Positions 23,222-31,852 of a DNA stretch of 64,000 nucleotides are shown in pieces. This stretch comes from Alicyclobacillus sp. (lineage in GTDB: Bacteria > Bacillota > Bacilli > Alicyclobacillales > Alicyclobacillaceae), in assembly GCA_023511295.1 (NCBI GenBank), contig JAIMBT010000013.1, positions 1-64,000 on the forward strand, read 5' to 3'. Within the stretch, counting starts at the first letter, position 1. Each line of letters opens with the position of its first letter. Under the pieces are notes generated by a model that was not told the origin of the DNA, ran no database searches, and saw only the letters and a program-made list of their open reading frames with translations. The position numbers were made by a program, and so were the translations under genes.

Positions 23222-24382
23222 TTGCGGACGTTCCGCCTGATTGCGGCTGCCTGTGCAGTCGGTTGCTTGTGCACGTCCGGCGTCGCGTACGGCGCTTCGC
23301 TGTCGTCGGAGAAGGCGCTGCTCGGAAAGTTGCAGTCTGAGGCAAGCCAGACGTATCAGCAGATCTCGCAGGACAAGTCGAAGGCGACCGCCCTGCAAAA
23401 CGCGATTCAACAAGACGAGTCGTCGCTTGCGAACATTCGGGCGGCGATTCGGGCCAACGAACAACAGTCGGCCCAGGTGGCCGCGGCGCTGACGAGACTC
23501 GACGAGAAACTCCAACAGAACCAGAAAATGTTGACGGCGGACAAACAGGACCTGGAAGCCCAGGTGCGCGCGATGTACGAGGATGGGCACGTGTCGTACC
23601 TCAGTGTCCTGCTGAACGCGACGAGTTTCAGCGATTTGTTGTCCCGCATCTACCTGCTCGAACAGATTGCGAAGAAGCAGCAGGACATGATTCACGAGGT
23701 GGCAGCACTTCGCCAGACCATCGCGCAACAACAGGGACAACAGAAGACCCTGTACGCCAGCCTGCAACAGAAACACCGCCAGTTGCAGACCTACGAGCAA
23801 GCGCAGACCATCCTCGAGCAGCACCAGCGGGAGGCGCTCGCGTCGGTGCGAGCTGACCTCACAGACCAGACCCGAAAGCGGACCACCCTCGAGAGTCAAA
23901 TCCAACTGACGCAGAGTCAAATCCAGCAGATTGAATTGGAGACGCAGCAAGCGGAGCAGCTCATGCAGAACCAACAATACGTGCAGACCACCCTCGAGAG
24001 TCTACCGCAGGTTGACGCGGAGCAGATCATCCAGTACGGAGAGCAGTTCATGGGTACCCCGTACGTTTGGGGTGGCACAACGCCGAACCCGGGGTTTGAC
24101 TGCTCCGGGTTCGTGCAGTACGTTTTCGCACACTTCGGCGTCTCCCTGTACCGGACCTCGGAAGAGCAGTTTGCGGAAGGTGTGCCGGTGTCCGAGAGCG
24201 ACTTGCAGCCCGGGGACCTCGTGTTTTTCAGCACCTATGCGCCCGGCGCGACACACGTCGGCATCTACATCGGCAACGGCATGATGCTCGATTCAGAGGA
24301 CATGGGGCTGACCATCGACAACATCCACAACTCGTATTGGGGCCCGAAGTACCTCGGCGCTCGCCGGGTCATTAAGTCATAA
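23222..24382 (+). CDS. secreted NlpC/P60 peptidoglycan endopeptidase with coiled coil
   Basis: 386 residues, TTG start after AAGGGAG. Signal peptide 1-24 (cut near AYGAS). Long coiled coil with many Gln (about 30-245), as in CwlO. Catalytic NlpC/P60 domain from about 270: Cys294 (DCSGF) and His345 (THVGIY). Cuts D-Glu to meso-DAP peptide bonds in the wall. The coiled coil is where FtsEX-type partners bind in CwlO. Own transcription unit between thrB and the G1 peptidase. The 184-bp gap before it shows no clear promoter. Confidence 0.92.
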   Translation: MRTFRLIAAACAVGCLCTSGVAYGASLSSEKALLGKLQSEASQTYQQISQDKSKATALQNAIQQDESSLANIRAAIRANEQQSAQVAAALTRLDEKLQQNQKMLTADKQDLEAQVRAMYEDGHVSYLSVLLNATSFSDLLSRIYLLEQIAKKQQDMIHEVAALRQTIAQQQGQQKTLYASLQQKHRQLQTYEQAQTILEQHQREALASVRADLTDQTRKRTTLESQIQLTQSQIQQIELETQQAEQLMQNQQYVQTTLESLPQVDAEQIIQYGEQFMGTPYVWGGTTPNPGFDCSGFVQYVFAHFGVSLYRTSEEQFAEGVPVSESDLQPGDLVFFSTYAPGATHVGIYIGNGMMLDSEDMGLTIDNIHNSYWGPKYLGARRVIKS

Positions 24383-24554
24383 ACAACGCGGGTCCACGTT
24401 TCGTTCACGTGTCCTCCACATTTCTCGACTACAATCTTTGTCGATAGAAGGGAAAGTTTGTCCAGTGCCGCCATACCCGAGTCGTTCCACGGCGACAACC
24501 GGGCGGCGAGGCGGTACTGGGCCAGCGTTCTAACTGGTGGGGAGGAGATATGGG

Positions 24555-25757
24555 ATGACCAGACGTCGCGTGTGGGCGGTTGCCTCGTTGTCGGTCTTGG
24601 CCGGATTCGGCGCGTGGAGCGCCTTTGGGCAGACAGGTGCCGCGGCGACGCCGTCCGGCTCGCTCAGCCTGGCCCAAGACCGCGCACCGGTCGCTTCGTC
24701 GTCGCTGTGGCCCAGTTGGCCGCAGTGGCCGAATGCGGATTCGTTCATCGATGTGCAGGCATGGGAACAGCAGCTCGCCCAACTGCAGAGTCAGCTCGTC
24801 CGCCAGATACAGACGGAGGTCGAGATCCTCGAACAACAGGCCGGCGTGACGGTGCCACTCCCGTCCTGGGTCACGCAGCCGGTGTCGAGCCTCGCGACAA
24901 CGATTCCGGACGCTCTGGGGATTGGAACCCCCTCGACCAGCGCCACCGGTTCAGCGCCAGGCTCCGGTATCGATAGCGTGCTGCCAAGCGGCACACAACC
25001 GTCGCAGAACTGGGCCGGCTACATCGACACCCCAGCCCCTGGAGCGACGCCGTACCGGAGCGTGTCGGCGACGTGGACCGTGCCAAAAACCACGGGCCGG
25101 TCAGGCAGTGTCGCGGCACAGTGGATTGGTCTTGGCGGAGTGACCAGTGAAGACCTGCTGCAGACCGGGACGATGGAGCAAATCTCGAACGGACAGGCCA
25201 CGGCGGAGGTGTTCTGGGAGGAATTGCCGAATACGGCCCAACCGCTGTTGACGGTCCCCATCGGTTCAACGGTGACGGCGTCCATCGAACAGGGTTCCGG
25301 CGCGACGTGGACCATCGACGTCACCGTCCGCACGCCGTCGGGACAGACGCTGACGAAGAACGTTCCCGTCACACTCGGCAAGGCGTACGCGGAGGGTATC
25401 GGGACCTCCGCGGAGTGGGTCAGCGAGGACCCGTCAAATGCGGACGAACGGCTGTACCCGCTGGCAGACGCCGGGACGGTCGTGTTCACCCGCGCGGATG
25501 TGAACGGACAAGCGCTCAGCGCTCCGGACAACCGCATCACGCCGGTCGCCATGGTCGATGGACTCGGGCACGTCGTCATCGCACCTTCCGCTCTCGGGAC
25601 GGACGGCGCGTCGTTTACGACCCAGACCGAGTCGACCTCGATGGAGTCTACCGGGAACGGTCGATGGGTTCCGGGTGAAGGTCGGAACGCGCCAGGCGAT
25701 TGGCGCCATGCCCTCCACACGCAGAGCTGGGGTGTTGTCTGGATCGGGCGGTGGTAG
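24555..25757 (+). CDS. secreted glutamic peptidase, G1 (eqolisin) family
   Basis: 400 residues from ATG 24555, SD ggaggag 7 nt upstream. Signal peptide (1-30), a propeptide with a Gln-rich helix (about 60-145), and a mature beta-sandwich domain from about 150: NWAGY at 152, ATWTVP at 172, AAQWIGLGG at 188. The family's catalytic Gln and Glu correspond to Gln203 (LLQTG) and Glu287 (SAEWVSEDP), both present. G1 peptidases are mostly fungal acid proteases; bacterial ones are few, and an enzyme from Alicyclobacillus has been studied. Likely a secreted acid-active protease. A strong terminator follows. Confidence 0.9.
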   Translation: MTRRRVWAVASLSVLAGFGAWSAFGQTGAAATPSGSLSLAQDRAPVASSSLWPSWPQWPNADSFIDVQAWEQQLAQLQSQLVRQIQTEVEILEQQAGVTVPLPSWVTQPVSSLATTIPDALGIGTPSTSATGSAPGSGIDSVLPSGTQPSQNWAGYIDTPAPGATPYRSVSATWTVPKTTGRSGSVAAQWIGLGGVTSEDLLQTGTMEQISNGQATAEVFWEELPNTAQPLLTVPIGSTVTASIEQGSGATWTIDVTVRTPSGQTLTKNVPVTLGKAYAEGIGTSAEWVSEDPSNADERLYPLADAGTVVFTRADVNGQALSAPDNRITPVAMVDGLGHVVIAPSALGTDGASFTTQTESTSMESTGNGRWVPGEGRNAPGDWRHALHTQSWGVVWIGRW

Positions 25758-25840: not shown

Positions 25841-26560
25841 TCAAGCGGGGTTGGTGGTCCAGATGCCGGCTTGGTTGACGAACACACGTTGAGGGAGATT
25901 CAAGATGGACCAAACGAGGTCGGCCACGTCTTCCGGCTGCAACATGCGGTCCTGCGGTCCAATCTTCAGTCCGAGCGTGGTCGCCATCTCGGTGTTCACC
26001 GTGCTCGGCGTGAGCGTGGTCACGCGGATGTTGTGCTTGCGCACCTCCTGCATCAGCGATTCGGAGAATCCAATCACGCCAAACTTGGCCGCCGAGTAGG
26101 CGGAGGTCGTGGCTGCACCGCGCTGGCCAGCGGTGGAACTTACGTTGACGATGCTACCGGTGTTGCGACGGACCATGTCGGGGAGAACGGCGCGTGTGAC
26201 GTAGTAGGTCCCGAGCACGTTCACTCGAAGAATCTGCTCCCAATCCGCCGGGTCCATGTCGAGTACGGTGCCAAACTTCGCCGCACCTGCGTTGTTGATG
26301 AGGATGTCAATCGGGCCGAGCGCTTCCGTCGTCTGTTGGACCGCCTGTTCGACTTCGCGGCGGTTGGAGATGTCCGCCGCAACGGTGTGTGTCCGGACGC
26401 CGTACGCTTCCTTCAGTTGGGCGGCCACCGCGTTCAGATCTGCGGCGGTCCGTGCGACCAGCCCCACGTTCACGCCTTCCGATGCGAGTTTCATCGCAAT
26501 GGCCTTGCCAATCCCTCTTCCTGCTCCCGTCACCAATGCCACCTGTCCGTGCAATGTCAC
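25841..26560 (-). CDS. 3-oxoacyl-ACP reductase-like SDR
   Basis: About 239 residues. GTG 26560 is preferred because GAGGTGAT is then well spaced; ATG 26566 directly abuts the SD. Complete SDR active site: TGAGRGIG near 12, NNAG near 88, Ser in NVSS, Tyr and Lys in YSAAK near 153-157. FabG-like; related proteins are often annotated 3-ketoacyl-(ACP) reductase. Divergent from the acyl-CoA synthetase operon, which suggests a shared link to fatty acid metabolism. Confidence 0.9.
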   Translation of the reverse strand: MTLHGQVALVTGAGRGIGKAIAMKLASEGVNVGLVARTAADLNAVAAQLKEAYGVRTHTVAADISNRREVEQAVQQTTEALGPIDILINNAGAAKFGTVLDMDPADWEQILRVNVLGTYYVTRAVLPDMVRRNTGSIVNVSSTAGQRGAATTSAYSAAKFGVIGFSESLMQEVRKHNIRVTTLTPSTVNTEMATTLGLKIGPQDRMLQPEDVADLVWSILNLPQRVFVNQAGIWTTNPA

Positions 26561-26566
26561 ACCCAT

Positions 26567-26782: not shown

Positions 26783-29200
26783 TTGAATGTGGTGCAACTG
26801 TTTCTCGCCTCCGTTGTCCGCGACCCGCGTCGGGCATGCCTGCAGTTCAAGGAAGCGAGTACGTACCAGACACTGAGCTACGCAGAGGTCTGGGAGACCG
26901 TCCAGCGACTGGCGTACGCGCTGCATGCACGCGGCGTCGGTAGGGACAGCAAGGTTGCCATCCTCGCAGCGTCGTCGCCGCGATGGCTGATGGCGGACTT
27001 GGCGGTTCAAGCCCTCGGTGCCATCGTCGTTCCCATTTATCCATCGGCGTCCACCGCAGACGCGGCCTTCATTCTCAGAAACGCGGAGGTATCGTGGCTG
27101 CTCACGGATGACGTGAACCACATGGAACGCTTGCGAGACGAGTGGCCGACAACCCTCCAGGGGACGGTGCTGCTGCACCAGGAGGCGAAGGAGCCAGCTG
27201 AAGGCCCGGTGTTCGGAACGCAGGTTGAGACGTGGGACCGGCTGCTGCAGTCGGCCGCCAAGGCTGCTCCGGTCGCAGTCCGGGCCGCCGTGCATCCGGA
27301 TGACGTCCCGGCTACCGCCGTGGCGACCATCGTCCACACATCGGGGACCTCGGGTCGCCCGAAGGGCGTGGTTCTGACCCATGCCAATCTGGTCGCCAAC
27401 ATTCAGGCTGCGCTCTCGACGCTCTCCGTCTCGCCGGACGATGTAGCGCTCTCCTACCTGCCGTTGTCCCACATCCTCGAACGAACCGTGGGGCACTACT
27501 GCATGCTGACCGCTGGTGCCTCCATCGCCTACGCGGAGGGCATCGACGCCATTGCGAACAACCTGACGGAGGTACGCCCCACGTTGCTGGTCACGGTTCC
27601 CCGCCTGCTCGAGAAGGTGTACGACGGCATCTGCGAGCGGTTGCGCTCGCGTCCGGGTCCGATTCGCCGATTGGTGGAGGCGGGCATACAGGCGGACCGC
27701 GGTGTGTTGCGTGGACTGGCAGACAGAGCCGTATATGCCAAGGTCCGCGCCGGGCTCGGCGGACGGATGCGAGCCGTCGTGTCCGGAGGGGCGAGCCTCT
27801 CGCCCGAAGTCGGGCGATTCTTTACGCGGGCAGGCATCCCCGTCCTCGAAGGCTACGGGATGACCGAGACCGCCCCGGTCATCGCGGTCAACCGGATGGA
27901 CCAGGTTCGGTTTGGCACAGTCGGGTTGCCACTGCCCGGGGTTGAGGTTCGCGTGGCCGAAGACGGAGAACTGCTGGTGCGCGGTCCCAACGTGATGCAG
28001 GGGTACTATCGAGATGAGGCGGCGACGGCAGAAGTTCTCGATCCCGACGGCTGGCTGCACACGGGAGACGTCGCCGAGATCGATGAGGATGGATACCTTC
28101 GCATCGTCGACCGCAAGAAACACCTCCTGGTCCTGGCAACCGGAAAGAACGTCGCACCGGCACCCATTGAAAGCGCCATCACGCGGTGCCCCTCCATCGC
28201 GGACGCCGTGGTGGTGGGGGACGGCTACAAGTTTGTCGGGTGCCTGTTGGTCCCGGATTTCGCTGCACTGGCCCAACCGGCCAGTCGGCTGGGGCTCCCT
28301 CCGAACCAGCCGGCCGCATGGCTGGCGCATCCCGTCATCCGCCGTCGACTGCAAGCCGAGTTGCAGGCGGCGTTGGAGTCCTTCGCGCCGTTCGAGCGCC
28401 CGAAACGCGCCGTGTTGCTCCCATCGCCGTTCACCATCGAGTCTGGAGAGTTGACGCCGACTTTGAAGGTCAAGGCAAAGGCGGTCACGGCCCGGTATCG
28501 GGACGAGATCGAAGCGATGTACGCGGGGCACAACTGCCTGGAGATCTACGGGGATCTTTCGGAGGCAGAGATGGACCCGGCGGATGCATCCCTTACAGAG
28601 GCGACATCGGCGGACATGGCTGATGATGAGGTGGCATCCGAGGCGCCGGCAAAACGCGCGCTTTCGAGCCGACGCAAGTGGACGCTCGGCATCGCAGCGG
28701 CCGTGTGCGTGTTGGGCGCTGCAGGGGGGGCCGCTGCAGCGACTGGGGTGCGACTTCCAAAGGGGCTGAACCTACCGGGCACCATTCGCCAGATTGGTCA
28801 GACCAACGTGGACATCAACCGCAAGAACCAGCAGGTGGTCGCCGGCCTGAGCCAAGCCGAGCACCTGTCGGCGCTGACGCCGCGCATGAGCGGGCAGCTG
28901 CAAGAACTGAACCAAGGTCTGGCCGGGCAGAACCAGGTTCTGCTGCAGTTGCGAAACCTCAGCCAGCAGGAAGTCGGCTTGTCCCACCAATTTGGCAGCG
29001 TCGCGAGCCGATTGCAGTCCGAACTGGCGACGATTCAGTCGAACAGCCAGGCGGAGGCCGACGCGATGGCGCAGATGGCGCAGGTGACAGGAGACCTCGG
29101 TCAACAGGCGGCCCAGTTGCAACAGACGAACGCGCAGCTGGCCTCGCGGCTGTCTGAGGCCCGCGACCGTACACAAACGGTTGCTGCGGAGGTGCCGTAG
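26783..29200 (+). CDS. long-chain acyl-CoA synthetase fused to a membrane helix and coiled coil
   Basis: 805 residues, TTG start with AAAGGTGGGA about 8 nt upstream. Residues 1-585 form a complete AMP-binding acyl-CoA synthetase: P-loop TSGTSGRPKG (186-195), YGMTET (358-363), HTGD (426-429), DRKK (443-446), and catalytic Lys562 in the C-terminal subdomain. Then an acidic linker (590-622), a basic patch (ALSSRRK), a membrane helix (633-653) and a Gln/Leu-rich coiled coil to the end. The positive-inside rule puts the enzyme in the cytoplasm and the coiled coil outside. Ordinary enzymes of this class stop near 560-600. First gene of a five-gene operon of helix-plus-coil proteins. Confidence 0.9.
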   Translation: MNVVQLFLASVVRDPRRACLQFKEASTYQTLSYAEVWETVQRLAYALHARGVGRDSKVAILAASSPRWLMADLAVQALGAIVVPIYPSASTADAAFILRNAEVSWLLTDDVNHMERLRDEWPTTLQGTVLLHQEAKEPAEGPVFGTQVETWDRLLQSAAKAAPVAVRAAVHPDDVPATAVATIVHTSGTSGRPKGVVLTHANLVANIQAALSTLSVSPDDVALSYLPLSHILERTVGHYCMLTAGASIAYAEGIDAIANNLTEVRPTLLVTVPRLLEKVYDGICERLRSRPGPIRRLVEAGIQADRGVLRGLADRAVYAKVRAGLGGRMRAVVSGGASLSPEVGRFFTRAGIPVLEGYGMTETAPVIAVNRMDQVRFGTVGLPLPGVEVRVAEDGELLVRGPNVMQGYYRDEAATAEVLDPDGWLHTGDVAEIDEDGYLRIVDRKKHLLVLATGKNVAPAPIESAITRCPSIADAVVVGDGYKFVGCLLVPDFAALAQPASRLGLPPNQPAAWLAHPVIRRRLQAELQAALESFAPFERPKRAVLLPSPFTIESGELTPTLKVKAKAVTARYRDEIEAMYAGHNCLEIYGDLSEAEMDPADASLTEATSADMADDEVASEAPAKRALSSRRKWTLGIAAAVCVLGAAGGAAAATGVRLPKGLNLPGTIRQIGQTNVDINRKNQQVVAGLSQAEHLSALTPRMSGQLQELNQGLAGQNQVLLQLRNLSQQEVGLSHQFGSVASRLQSELATIQSNSQAEADAMAQMAQVTGDLGQQAAQLQQTNAQLASRLSEARDRTQTVAAEVP

Positions 29201-29246
29201 GGAGACGTCGGAAGAACCGCTCAGAGATGCGAGGGAGGGGACGCAA

Positions 29247-29765
29247 ATGGCCGTCATGTGGAAGAACGGACTGGCGGTCGGCGGGATGGTCGTGGTGGCC
29301 GGCCTGCTCGCGGTAACCGTACCGACGACCGTGTCGCTCGCGCGGATTGACCGCGGACTGCAGTCGAGCCTCCAGACGACGCAGGAACTGGCCCGCGTGC
29401 AGTCGGGCGTGATTGAGAACAACCGCAGTTTGGGCCCACTCCTGCGGGCGGCGCAGCAGATGCAGCGAAACCTGGTCCAGACGCAGCAAGTGACAGAAGA
29501 TCTGAACCGAAACATCGCCACCATTGACCAGTTGAACGCGGCGACCCTGCGCATCAATCAAGCCATCGCCGGCGGGGCCCACGGCAGTGCCAACAACCTG
29601 CAGGCGATTGCCTCGAACCTGAAGTCGCTGGACGCCGCAACCGCCTCCCTCGCCAAGACCCTGCGGTCACTGGACCAGCTCGTCGCGGAGGACGAAACGG
29701 GACTCGCCGCGATGCGGGCGGCAGCGGACGAAATGAACGCGAAGGTGCCGGGGGTGACGGGATGA
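29247..29765 (+). CDS. membrane-anchored coiled-coil protein A
   Basis: 172 residues, ATG 29247 with GGGAGGGG upstream. Short basic N-terminus, one membrane helix (about 9-31), then an almost fully helical Gln/Asn/Leu-rich coiled coil, predicted outside. Not recognised as a known family. Same design as the tail of the acyl-CoA synthetase 46 bp upstream. The stop overlaps the next ATG. Confidence 0.75.
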   Translation: MAVMWKNGLAVGGMVVVAGLLAVTVPTTVSLARIDRGLQSSLQTTQELARVQSGVIENNRSLGPLLRAAQQMQRNLVQTQQVTEDLNRNIATIDQLNAATLRINQAIAGGAHGSANNLQAIASNLKSLDAATASLAKTLRSLDQLVAEDETGLAAMRAAADEMNAKVPGVTG

Positions 29766-30277
29766 AGTGGGGCGTGACGGGGATCGCGAAATGGGTGATC
29801 CCGCTCGGACTGGCACTCGTCTGCGCGAACGCGTGGGTCGAGGTGCATTTACAGCGTGACATGGCGGCGAAATCCGTCCAGTTGGCGCAGCATGTGCAGC
29901 ACGCGCGGCAGTTAGCGAGCGAAATCCCGACGGGGCTCGTCGGACTGACGACGTTGTCGCACGTGACCGCGGATATGGCCCAGCGGCTGGCAGCCATCCA
30001 GCAGTCCGTGACGTCGATGGATGCCGGCCTCGCTTCGCTGGCAGAAACGGTGCAAGGCTTGGACGGATCGATCCGCTCCATCCACGGCGGCGTTGCGGAC
30101 TCGGCGGGAAGTTTGGCGGACATCCGAACGAGCGAAGAACACATCTCGGCAACGATGCAACAACTGAATTCGACGAACGGATCACTGGTCCGCAGCCTCC
30201 AGCAGATGGAGCAGAGTGCGGCGCAGATCGATGACGACGTGGCACAGATGAACCAGAAGACGGCGGTCTTGCCCTGA
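29762..30277 (+). CDS. membrane-anchored coiled-coil protein B
   Basis: 171 residues, ATGA overlap with protein A. Membrane helix about 8-26, then a coiled coil rich in Gln, Ser, Ala and Leu with repeated SL/SI-D-G-like heptads. No enzymatic motif. The translational coupling suggests A and B are made in similar amounts, perhaps as a complex. Confidence 0.75.
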   Translation: MKWGVTGIAKWVIPLGLALVCANAWVEVHLQRDMAAKSVQLAQHVQHARQLASEIPTGLVGLTTLSHVTADMAQRLAAIQQSVTSMDAGLASLAETVQGLDGSIRSIHGGVADSAGSLADIRTSEEHISATMQQLNSTNGSLVRSLQQMEQSAAQIDDDVAQMNQKTAVLP

Positions 30278-30322
30278 GCGGGTTGCAGCCGCGCCCCCGC
30301 GTGTGGCGAAGAGGGAGGGCGA

Positions 30323-31177
30323 ATGAGTATGTCGATGGCACCCGAACCACAGCGTCCGCGTTCCGCTGCCCCCAAGTGGCTGCTGCCGGGCGGCGTCGCG
30401 GCGTGCTGTTCACTTGCCGCGGTGGCTGTGTGGACCCTGGCACACGGTGTGACCCTGCCGCGAAACAACCTGTTTGCACTGGTCAGGCAGCTCCACGGTA
30501 CAACCCATGGGATGCTCGCGAACACGAGGCAGCTCTCCGCCCAGGTGGACCGGGTGGATGCGCAGTTGCAGTCGTTGCAACAGCAGGAGCAGCTTCTGCA
30601 GCAGCAGCAGCAGACGGGTCAGGCGTTGTCGGCGCAGCTGAATCGACAGGTGCAGTTGACGCAGCACAACGTGGACCTGATGCAGCAAATTCTGTCGGCG
30701 GAAGAGGGGGCGGCGACGGCGACCGTCGGGGTCGCGCAACAGGCGGCGGGGCTTACAGCGACCGTGCAGCAGAACGTGCGCGTGTTGCAGTCGCTGGATG
30801 GCAGTTTGGCCGATATGAATGCGTCGAGCGTGCAACTCGACGGTGAGATGACGCGTCTGCTGCAAGCGCTGTCCGATGCGGAGCAGGAGTTCCGCCTGTT
30901 TGGTCAGGTGAACCAGTTGCTGGGGTCCGGGGGCGGCCTGTTGTCGTCCGTGGGTCAGACGGTGACGTCGCTCAGCAAGGGGTTGGCCTCCGGCGGATCG
31001 CTGCCAGCCGCAGGGAGTCTGACGCAATCCGTGGGTGGGGCAGCAGGGGCCGCAGGAAACGCTGTGAAACAGGGTCTCAGTGCCGTGACCGGCACTGGAA
31101 CAGGGACCACCGGAGGGACGAGCGGATCAGGCCTGACGGGGTTGCTGCCGCTCGGAGGCCTGCTGTCGCCAAATTGA
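30323..31177 (+). CDS. membrane-anchored coiled-coil protein C with Gly/Ser-rich tail
   Basis: 284 residues, SD gagggaggg. Basic Pro-rich N-terminus, membrane helix about 19-41, a strongly Gln-rich coiled coil (about 55-195, including runs of Gln near 85-100), and a low-complexity Gly/Ser/Thr/Leu tail (200-284). Largest of the four small proteins. No known family recognised. Confidence 0.75.
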   Translation: MSMSMAPEPQRPRSAAPKWLLPGGVAACCSLAAVAVWTLAHGVTLPRNNLFALVRQLHGTTHGMLANTRQLSAQVDRVDAQLQSLQQQEQLLQQQQQTGQALSAQLNRQVQLTQHNVDLMQQILSAEEGAATATVGVAQQAAGLTATVQQNVRVLQSLDGSLADMNASSVQLDGEMTRLLQALSDAEQEFRLFGQVNQLLGSGGGLLSSVGQTVTSLSKGLASGGSLPAAGSLTQSVGGAAGAAGNAVKQGLSAVTGTGTGTTGGTSGSGLTGLLPLGGLLSPN

Positions 31178-31232
31178 GGGACGAAACGGTGACCGTAGAT
31201 GGCAAGGAATGAAATGGGGAGGGGGTGAAGCC

Positions 31233-31778
31233 ATGGCGTTGGAAACGGGAACTGTCCGCCGGATGTTGACCGTCGTCTCGACGTGCGTGTCGCTGGCTGG
31301 CTTGGGCGGGTTTTCCTACAGCATGGCCGAGCAGACGCACATTCAGGCGGACATGGACCAAACGATGGCCGGATTGAACCGGGATGTGGCACAGACAACA
31401 CCCTTGGTGGCACAGACGGCGGCTGCCCTGCGCCCGTTGCAGTCGGCGACCACCTCGCTCGTGCAGATTGAACAGGCCGAAACGGAAACGGTGTCACACC
31501 TGCGGTCGATGAACGACCACCTCGCACAAATCGGCCTGCGTGAGGAGAACATCCTCTCCGACATGCAAGCGCTACAACAGGGCACGGTAGGTTTGGCGGG
31601 AGATCTGCGCACCGCCTCCGGGCTGGAGCAGGGCATCTTGCAAGGCTCCGAGACGGCCGCCGCCTTGGCAGGGCAAGCGGCCGCCGCGTTGGGCCAGTTG
31701 CAGCATTCCACCACAGACATCTCCGAGCAGTTGAGCGCAGTCAACAGCCGCCTCAGCGCGCTGCGGCTCCTCCCGTGA
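31233..31778 (+). CDS. membrane-anchored coiled-coil protein D
   Basis: 181 residues, ATG 31233 with GGGAGGGGGTGA upstream. Membrane helix about 11-30, then a coiled coil with many Gln, Thr, Leu and Ala to the C-terminus. Last gene of the operon; an intrinsic terminator follows at 31819. Similar in layout, but not visibly close in sequence, to A-C. Confidence 0.75.
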   Translation: MALETGTVRRMLTVVSTCVSLAGLGGFSYSMAEQTHIQADMDQTMAGLNRDVAQTTPLVAQTAAALRPLQSATTSLVQIEQAETETVSHLRSMNDHLAQIGLREENILSDMQALQQGTVGLAGDLRTASGLEQGILQGSETAAALAGQAAAALGQLQHSTTDISEQLSAVNSRLSALRLLP

Positions 31779-31818: not shown

Positions 31819-31852
31819 GCGAACCGCAGGGGCGCCTGCGATTCGCTTTTTT
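31819..31852 (+). terminator. terminator of the acyl-CoA synthetase/coiled-coil operon
   Basis: GCGAA-C-CGCAGG (31819-31830) pairs with CCTGCG-A-TTCGC (31835-31846), one mismatch, 4-nt loop, then six T. Confidence 0.92.

Follow-up and report, generated by a model that had tools for sequence, protein, structure and literature searches.

Five genes follow one another on the forward strand of the analyzed window, a stretch of 64,000 nucleotides from an Alicyclobacillus sp. contig. Gene A (26783-29200, +) opens with a TTG start and encodes 805 residues comprising a long-chain-type acyl-CoA synthetase (ACS), one membrane helix at about residues 630-655, and a 143-residue coiled coil ending in EVP. 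Each of the genes B to E encodes one N-terminal hydrophobic membrane helix followed by a coil: gene B (29247-29765, +; 172 residues) with a coil of 141 residues and the consensus end MNxKxPGV, gene C (29762-30277, +; 171 residues) with one of 148 residues and a 4-bp overlap with the end of B, gene D (30323-31177, +; 284 residues) with one of ~150 residues continued by a variable Gly/Ser/Thr-rich C-terminal tail, and gene E (31233-31778, +; 181 residues) with one of 149 residues and the consensus end LxALxLLP. An in-frame ATG is also located upstream of the called start of E, at 31209. The intergenic spacings A-B, B-C, C-D, and D-E amount to 46, -4, 45, and 55 bp, and 29 out of 38 other loci have the same 4-bp overlap between B and C. 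A preceding sequence-only reading of this DNA had described the in-frame run of the 805-residue ACS into a linker, one membrane helix, and a coil, as well as the four membrane-anchored coil genes downstream with exactly these spacings; Pfam and sequence bear out the former, and the latter stands as described. It had also closed the unit with one intrinsic terminator. A terminator-like stem (31825-31840) with a T run behind it, reaching to 31846 (+), fits in position as the operon end; since such stems are no more numerous in the region than expected by chance, the call derives from position alone.

Residues 10-409 of gene A match the Pfam AMP-binding domain at 3.6e-81 (PF00501, 273 bits against a cut-off of 29.9) and residues 448-582 match AMP-binding_C_3 at 6.6e-12 (PF23562, 46 bits against a cut-off of 20.8). 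The orthologue alignment revealed the segments TSGTSGxPKG, EGYGMTE, GWLxTGD, and LTPTLKV to be conserved, and the complete synthetase with all motifs postulated before is found in these domains and segments. Gene A belongs to the AMP-forming acyl-CoA synthetase superfamily (PF00501), and membership in this family makes long-chain fatty acids its probable substrate. Its best NCBIfam match is FadD11 (NF038343), at 341 bits and under the cut-off of 950. FadD11-like long-chain acyl-CoA synthetases share the AMP-binding and AMP-binding_C_3 domains with gene A, whereas the ACS of this operon differs by a C-terminal helix plus coil when fused and by a C-terminal helix when unfused. The AlphaFold model of gene A is confident in the ACS domain, contains a modelled helix at 630-650, and shows low confidence for the coil.

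Gene A, searched against 61 related genomes, returned orthologues at 43-55% identity, many of them full-length, with B, C, D, and E located downstream in unchanged order. B was present in 16 of the 61 genomes, all 16 of which encode a coil-bearing ACS (in G013 as pieces at contig ends). In G027, an assembly of 72% completeness, the contig carrying the ACS measures 3.8 kb and the open frame of the ACS comprises 855 codons; B and C were not found. Three loci of a single genus (L042, L043, and L045) encode ACS orthologues of 603-627 residues in which the coil is absent, and the genome-wide search of these three genomes, covering B and C, found neither of them.

The five coils recur with unchanged order in another 39 loci, which together with the window represent at least 10 families of Bacilli, with L032 lacking most of B; the identities of the parts are roughly 30-50% inside the family and about 20-30% outside. 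The check for co-occurrence of the five genes in relatives, suggested by the earlier reading, thus has a positive result, and a restriction of the set to Alicyclobacillaceae is rejected by its presence in other families of Bacilli. Named carriers include Alicyclobacillus mengziensis, A. ferrooxydans, A. tolerans, A. montanus, and A. fastidiosus. A narrow profile of E detected seven Alicyclobacillus loci in genome contigs. The C profile matched 20 out of 59 genomes on order level at E<=1e-5, the match in G028 being weak and partial, and 36 out of 399 genomes on class level at E<=1e-8, or 34 after removal of the weak partial matches in G028 and G069. Outside the class, neither the narrow E nor the wide C profile matched any of 398 genomes across the phylum at E<=1e-8 except the window's own; both searches probably drew on one shared genome sample.

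Among the 40 coil loci including the window, the ACS is fused in 19, a separate neighbor in 11, and without an adjacent copy in 10, so that in 30 of the 40 it is either fused to the first coil or encoded just upstream. The coil part of gene A (28769..29197, +) was recognized by alignment with 21 separate coil genes as the counterpart of the separate first-coil gene in other families. The fusion seen in the window is found in 19 loci; other families carry separate genes, and the ACS is not obligatory. Neither of the refuting conditions named by the earlier reading applies: the coil is present in 18 ACS orthologues, and B to E lie adjacent with their order kept instead of being unconserved or scattered. 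A probable long-chain ACS and the five-coil set are genetically tied. In the 11 loci with a separate ACS gene the enzyme comprises 618-718 residues and carries its own C-terminal membrane helix. Eight of the 10 genomes with ACS-free coil loci encode an ACS relative elsewhere (E<=1e-60), and the distant, non-operon ACSs are free of a membrane tail in all six inspected. The remaining two, G140 and G225, gave no genome-wide ACS match to the query at E<=1e-60, and consequently the coil set must serve some use without this enzyme.

Three loci deviate individually. L048 begins inside A at a contig end. In L032 (6617-10998), A ends early (766 residues) and B is reduced to its C-terminal part, as if a single deletion had spanned the end of the A coil and the start of B. 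L097 (6265-8685, family f14), excluded from the 40-locus count, looks like a decayed operon with a fragment of the ACS and a remnant of C, suggesting joint loss.

The ACS tree groups the operon ACSs of families f1, f2, and f14 with lone ACSs (100/100), apart from the Alicyclobacillaceae paralogues, and places those of f18, f31, f32, and f40 in a second group (100/100). The deep split of the coil tree is identical. Within this topology, the separate ACSs of f14 are nested among fused ones, indicating repeated fusion or a fission; judged from the coil tree, a single origin of the ACS-coil fusion may be compatible with these sequences.

Extension of the comparison toward curated families yielded no Pfam or NCBIfam match of the coils reaching its cut-off, and DUF948, DUF1664, EzrA, and other coil families were all sub-threshold for the window proteins. 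Pfam recorded one weak match over 22 first-coil rows; in NCBIfam, the matches of 33 E rows were all generic coil matches, with at most three in any one family. The PADLOC anti-phage defence models gave no convincing match, only weak coil matches with a best value of 2.3e-4. Known coil or defence families were accordingly rejected as the identity of the coils, as nothing exceeded the cut-off in Pfam, NCBIfam, or PADLOC. Compared with PDB sequences, the C profile retrieved generic coil matches, namely chemoreceptor cytoplasmic bundles at 1e-7 as well as designed coils and viral fusion proteins, and a fold search of the C monomer model against the PDB returned none at E<=0.001. The searched literature, which held few subscription papers, contained no description of the five-coil set, in agreement with the earlier statement that no described system of this composition was known.

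The coils of the five proteins span 141-152 residues, corresponding to about 21-22 nm as a single helix at 1.5 Å per residue. Relative to the window, gaps were found in one out of 38 orthologues for coil A (L032, in which A ends early), one out of 38 for coil B (L095, a reading frame of 138 residues), one out of 39 for coil C (L101, a short ORF of 155 residues), and none out of 39 for coil E; the length of coil D is changed in 2-4 out of 39, depending on the alignment setting. This count considered every available locus under two alignment settings with the window as reference and coil boundaries set by eye. It supersedes an earlier count on hand-assembled alignments without loci of odd start or short frame, and with 16 close relatives for D, which had given zero gaps for A, B, C, and E. 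The length exceptions in L095 and L101 may be real or may reflect sequencing or start-call effects. Gap openings per 100 residues amount to 0.00-0.13 in the coils at 31-36% mean identity compared with about 1.0 in the ACS domain at 53%, where gaps occur in 31 out of 31 rows at a breadth as for the coils. Since aligners may mask compensating indels at such identity, the safe claim is a nearly invariant net length.

All five coils share a hydrophobic period of 3.48-3.49, far above shuffled sequences. Local phase profiles placed the best offset within 9 residues of equal membrane distance in nine out of 10 pairs, where about two are expected at random; the best value of A-B lies at the range edge and the one of B-E is second-ranked. 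Because the phase profiles are autocorrelated and the pairs non-independent, this register match is taken as support and not as proof. A total profile score by offset, which is biased to long overlap, and coarse heptad phases were not relied on. With the reservation that the composition of coils inflates their similarity in profile comparisons, C and E align from the membrane helix to the C-terminus over 168 residues, making E a profile-level paralogue of C, and A and D have a common juxtamembrane segment. In a heptad assignment using weights of our own choice, large apolar residues occupy 58-87% of the core positions a/d and e/g are mostly polar, a pattern that is not specific to a pentamer. 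Coil length, period, and phase agree with each other, yet are compatible with different numbers of chains. In its AlphaFold monomer model (pTM 0.52), C is broken up into three helices, leaving room for a folded-back bundle.

In respect to topology, the net charge before the helix is higher than after it in all five families. The ACS of gene A must be inside and only one helix follows, so that its coil would be placed outside. The N-inside orientation formerly assigned to all five proteins agrees with the net charge and with the ACS fusion; K+R alone is not higher before the helix in B and C.

The gene neighborhoods differ among families. In the window, a divergent 3-ketoacyl-ACP reductase gene (25844-26566; PRK07666 equivalog, 370.6 bits against a cut-off of 286) lies upstream of the operon, and inspection by eye of 23222-25757 indicated a secreted NlpC/P60-like protein with a coil region, followed by a protein resembling eqolisin-type acid peptidases. 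Acyl-CoA dehydrogenase, ACS, and SDR genes are found near L101. Genes of SLH-domain (S-layer type) proteins adjoin the coil set in L083, L088, and L099. Nine Alicyclobacillaceae loci (L032, L035, L039, L040, and L042-L046), lone-ACS loci included, have a recurring CoA_binding_2 protein gene. In nine others (L086, L087, L089-L091, L093, L095, L098, and L106) the set lies between two nearby genes, one of the DUF2614 (YgzB-type) and one of the FUR-family (PerR-like) kind. A TetR-family-like regulator gene is located directly upstream in the f18 loci L092, L096, and L101, with Pfam run on L096 and L101.

As an overall explanation, we propose at about even chances that the products of the five genes assemble into a single envelope complex with the ACS inside and a role in trapping fatty acids. 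The parts of this proposal differ in strength: that the five proteins form one complex is likely, while a role in fatty-acid uptake is a tentative assignment that may well prove wrong. In such a complex, the five membrane helices would lie side by side with their N-termini inside, and the coils, parallel and in register, would build a rod that spans about 21 nm of the wall zone. The ACS would sit on the cytoplasmic base of the rod, held via the fused coil or its own C-terminal helix, and would focus the activation of fatty acids on the places at which these, in free form, pass into or out of the membrane, trapping them as acyl-CoA. For enzymes of the FadD type, vectorial acylation of this kind is an established concept. 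Import of fatty acids, placement of the enzyme, and organization of membrane domains, all suggested at the outset, are candidate functions. The idea that the five coils come together outside the membrane, also suggested at the outset, we infer from indirect evidence, i.e., co-occurrence, near-invariant length, common period, residual paralogy, and the existence of fused and separate forms. The proposal is further supported by the absence of B and C from the three genomes with a coil-less ACS orthologue, by the deep split shared by the ACS and coil trees, and by the lipid genes in the window and near L101. Against it stand the 10 coil sets without an adjacent ACS and the three-helix monomer model of C. 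The invariant coil length could also result from separate homo-oligomers.

Several observations would also suit other explanations. The 10 of 40 loci without an adjacent ACS, the SLH-domain genes beside three coil sets, and the long Gly/Ser-rich tail of D would fit a coil set serving mainly as structural spacer or anchor between membrane, wall, and S-layer, with the ACS being a lineage-specific partner that borrows a membrane anchor. The tie to the ACS, however, recurs in both deep coil clades and in fused as well as separate tail-anchored forms, exceeding the expectation for an incidental partner, and we regard this explanation as unlikely, even though the ACS-free quarter of the loci and the SLH neighbors keep a purely structural role alive. 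Lipid turnover instead of import, in which a membrane-held ACS salvages fatty acids freed from the lipids of the membrane, with the rod doing no more than positioning the enzyme, would be in line with the divergent reductase gene in the window and, as a weak stress hint, with the FUR-family gene beside the operon in nine loci; given that the neighbors differ from family to family, we consider it rather improbable.

The match of the C profile to chemoreceptor bundles could be read as a receptor-like sensor, in which the coil bundle reads the state of the envelope and relays it by way of the helices, with the ACS or a different partner as the receiver. Heptad bundles are expected to match each other, though, as the designed coils and viral fusion proteins did, and a signalling domain is absent; such a sensor is thus very improbable. 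Chance read-through of the ACS into a coil next to unrelated coil genes is refuted by the conservation in 39 further loci, nothing speaking in its favor after testing.

A more specific form of the proposed envelope complex is a hetero-pentameric tube, the apolar axial channel of which would lead fatty acids across the Gram-positive wall, over a distance of about 21 nm, to the ligase at its base; this form is speculative and appears quite unlikely. Among the closest known systems is the mycobacterial fatty-acid transporter Mce1 (Mce1ABCDEF, YrbE1AB, and MceG), which is linked with the ligase FadD5 and likewise combines several paralogous proteins that are anchored in the membrane and have long helical parts outside it. 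With a hydrophobic tunnel, Mce1 extends about 225 Å into the periplasm, forming a helical needle that carries fatty acids (PMC9882608). In contrast to the six proteins of Mce1 there are five here, and the ligase can be coil-fused; among the Pfam matches listed at E<=1 (for C, the best 25 of 35) there was no MCE/MlaD domain in the coil proteins. Protein C gave a sub-threshold, coil-only match to TIGR00996 (E 0.0055), and the pair of YrbE permease and MceG ATPase was not seen among the genes recurring around the loci. The resemblance to Mce1 is taken here as an analogy. A five-helix fatty-acid channel is physically possible, as illustrated by COMP, a parallel five-helix coiled coil binding fatty acids in its axial channel (PMC3487892). 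COMP, likewise taken as an analogue, is a short homopentamer of an animal matrix protein, whereas a pentamer is only hypothetical for the five-coil set. If true, the tube would correspond to the Mce needle but be built of coiled coils, lacking both MCE domains and an ATPase.

A coil set without a curated family model, its order kept in at least 10 families and its tie to a ligase repeated, points to an undescribed envelope complex. The envelope complex proposed here provides a specific candidate, amenable to deletion, for how long-chain fatty acids may reach the ACS at a thick-walled envelope; thereby, the fused, the separate tail-anchored, and the ACS-free forms represent a natural experiment on the attachment of the enzyme and on the use of the rod without it.
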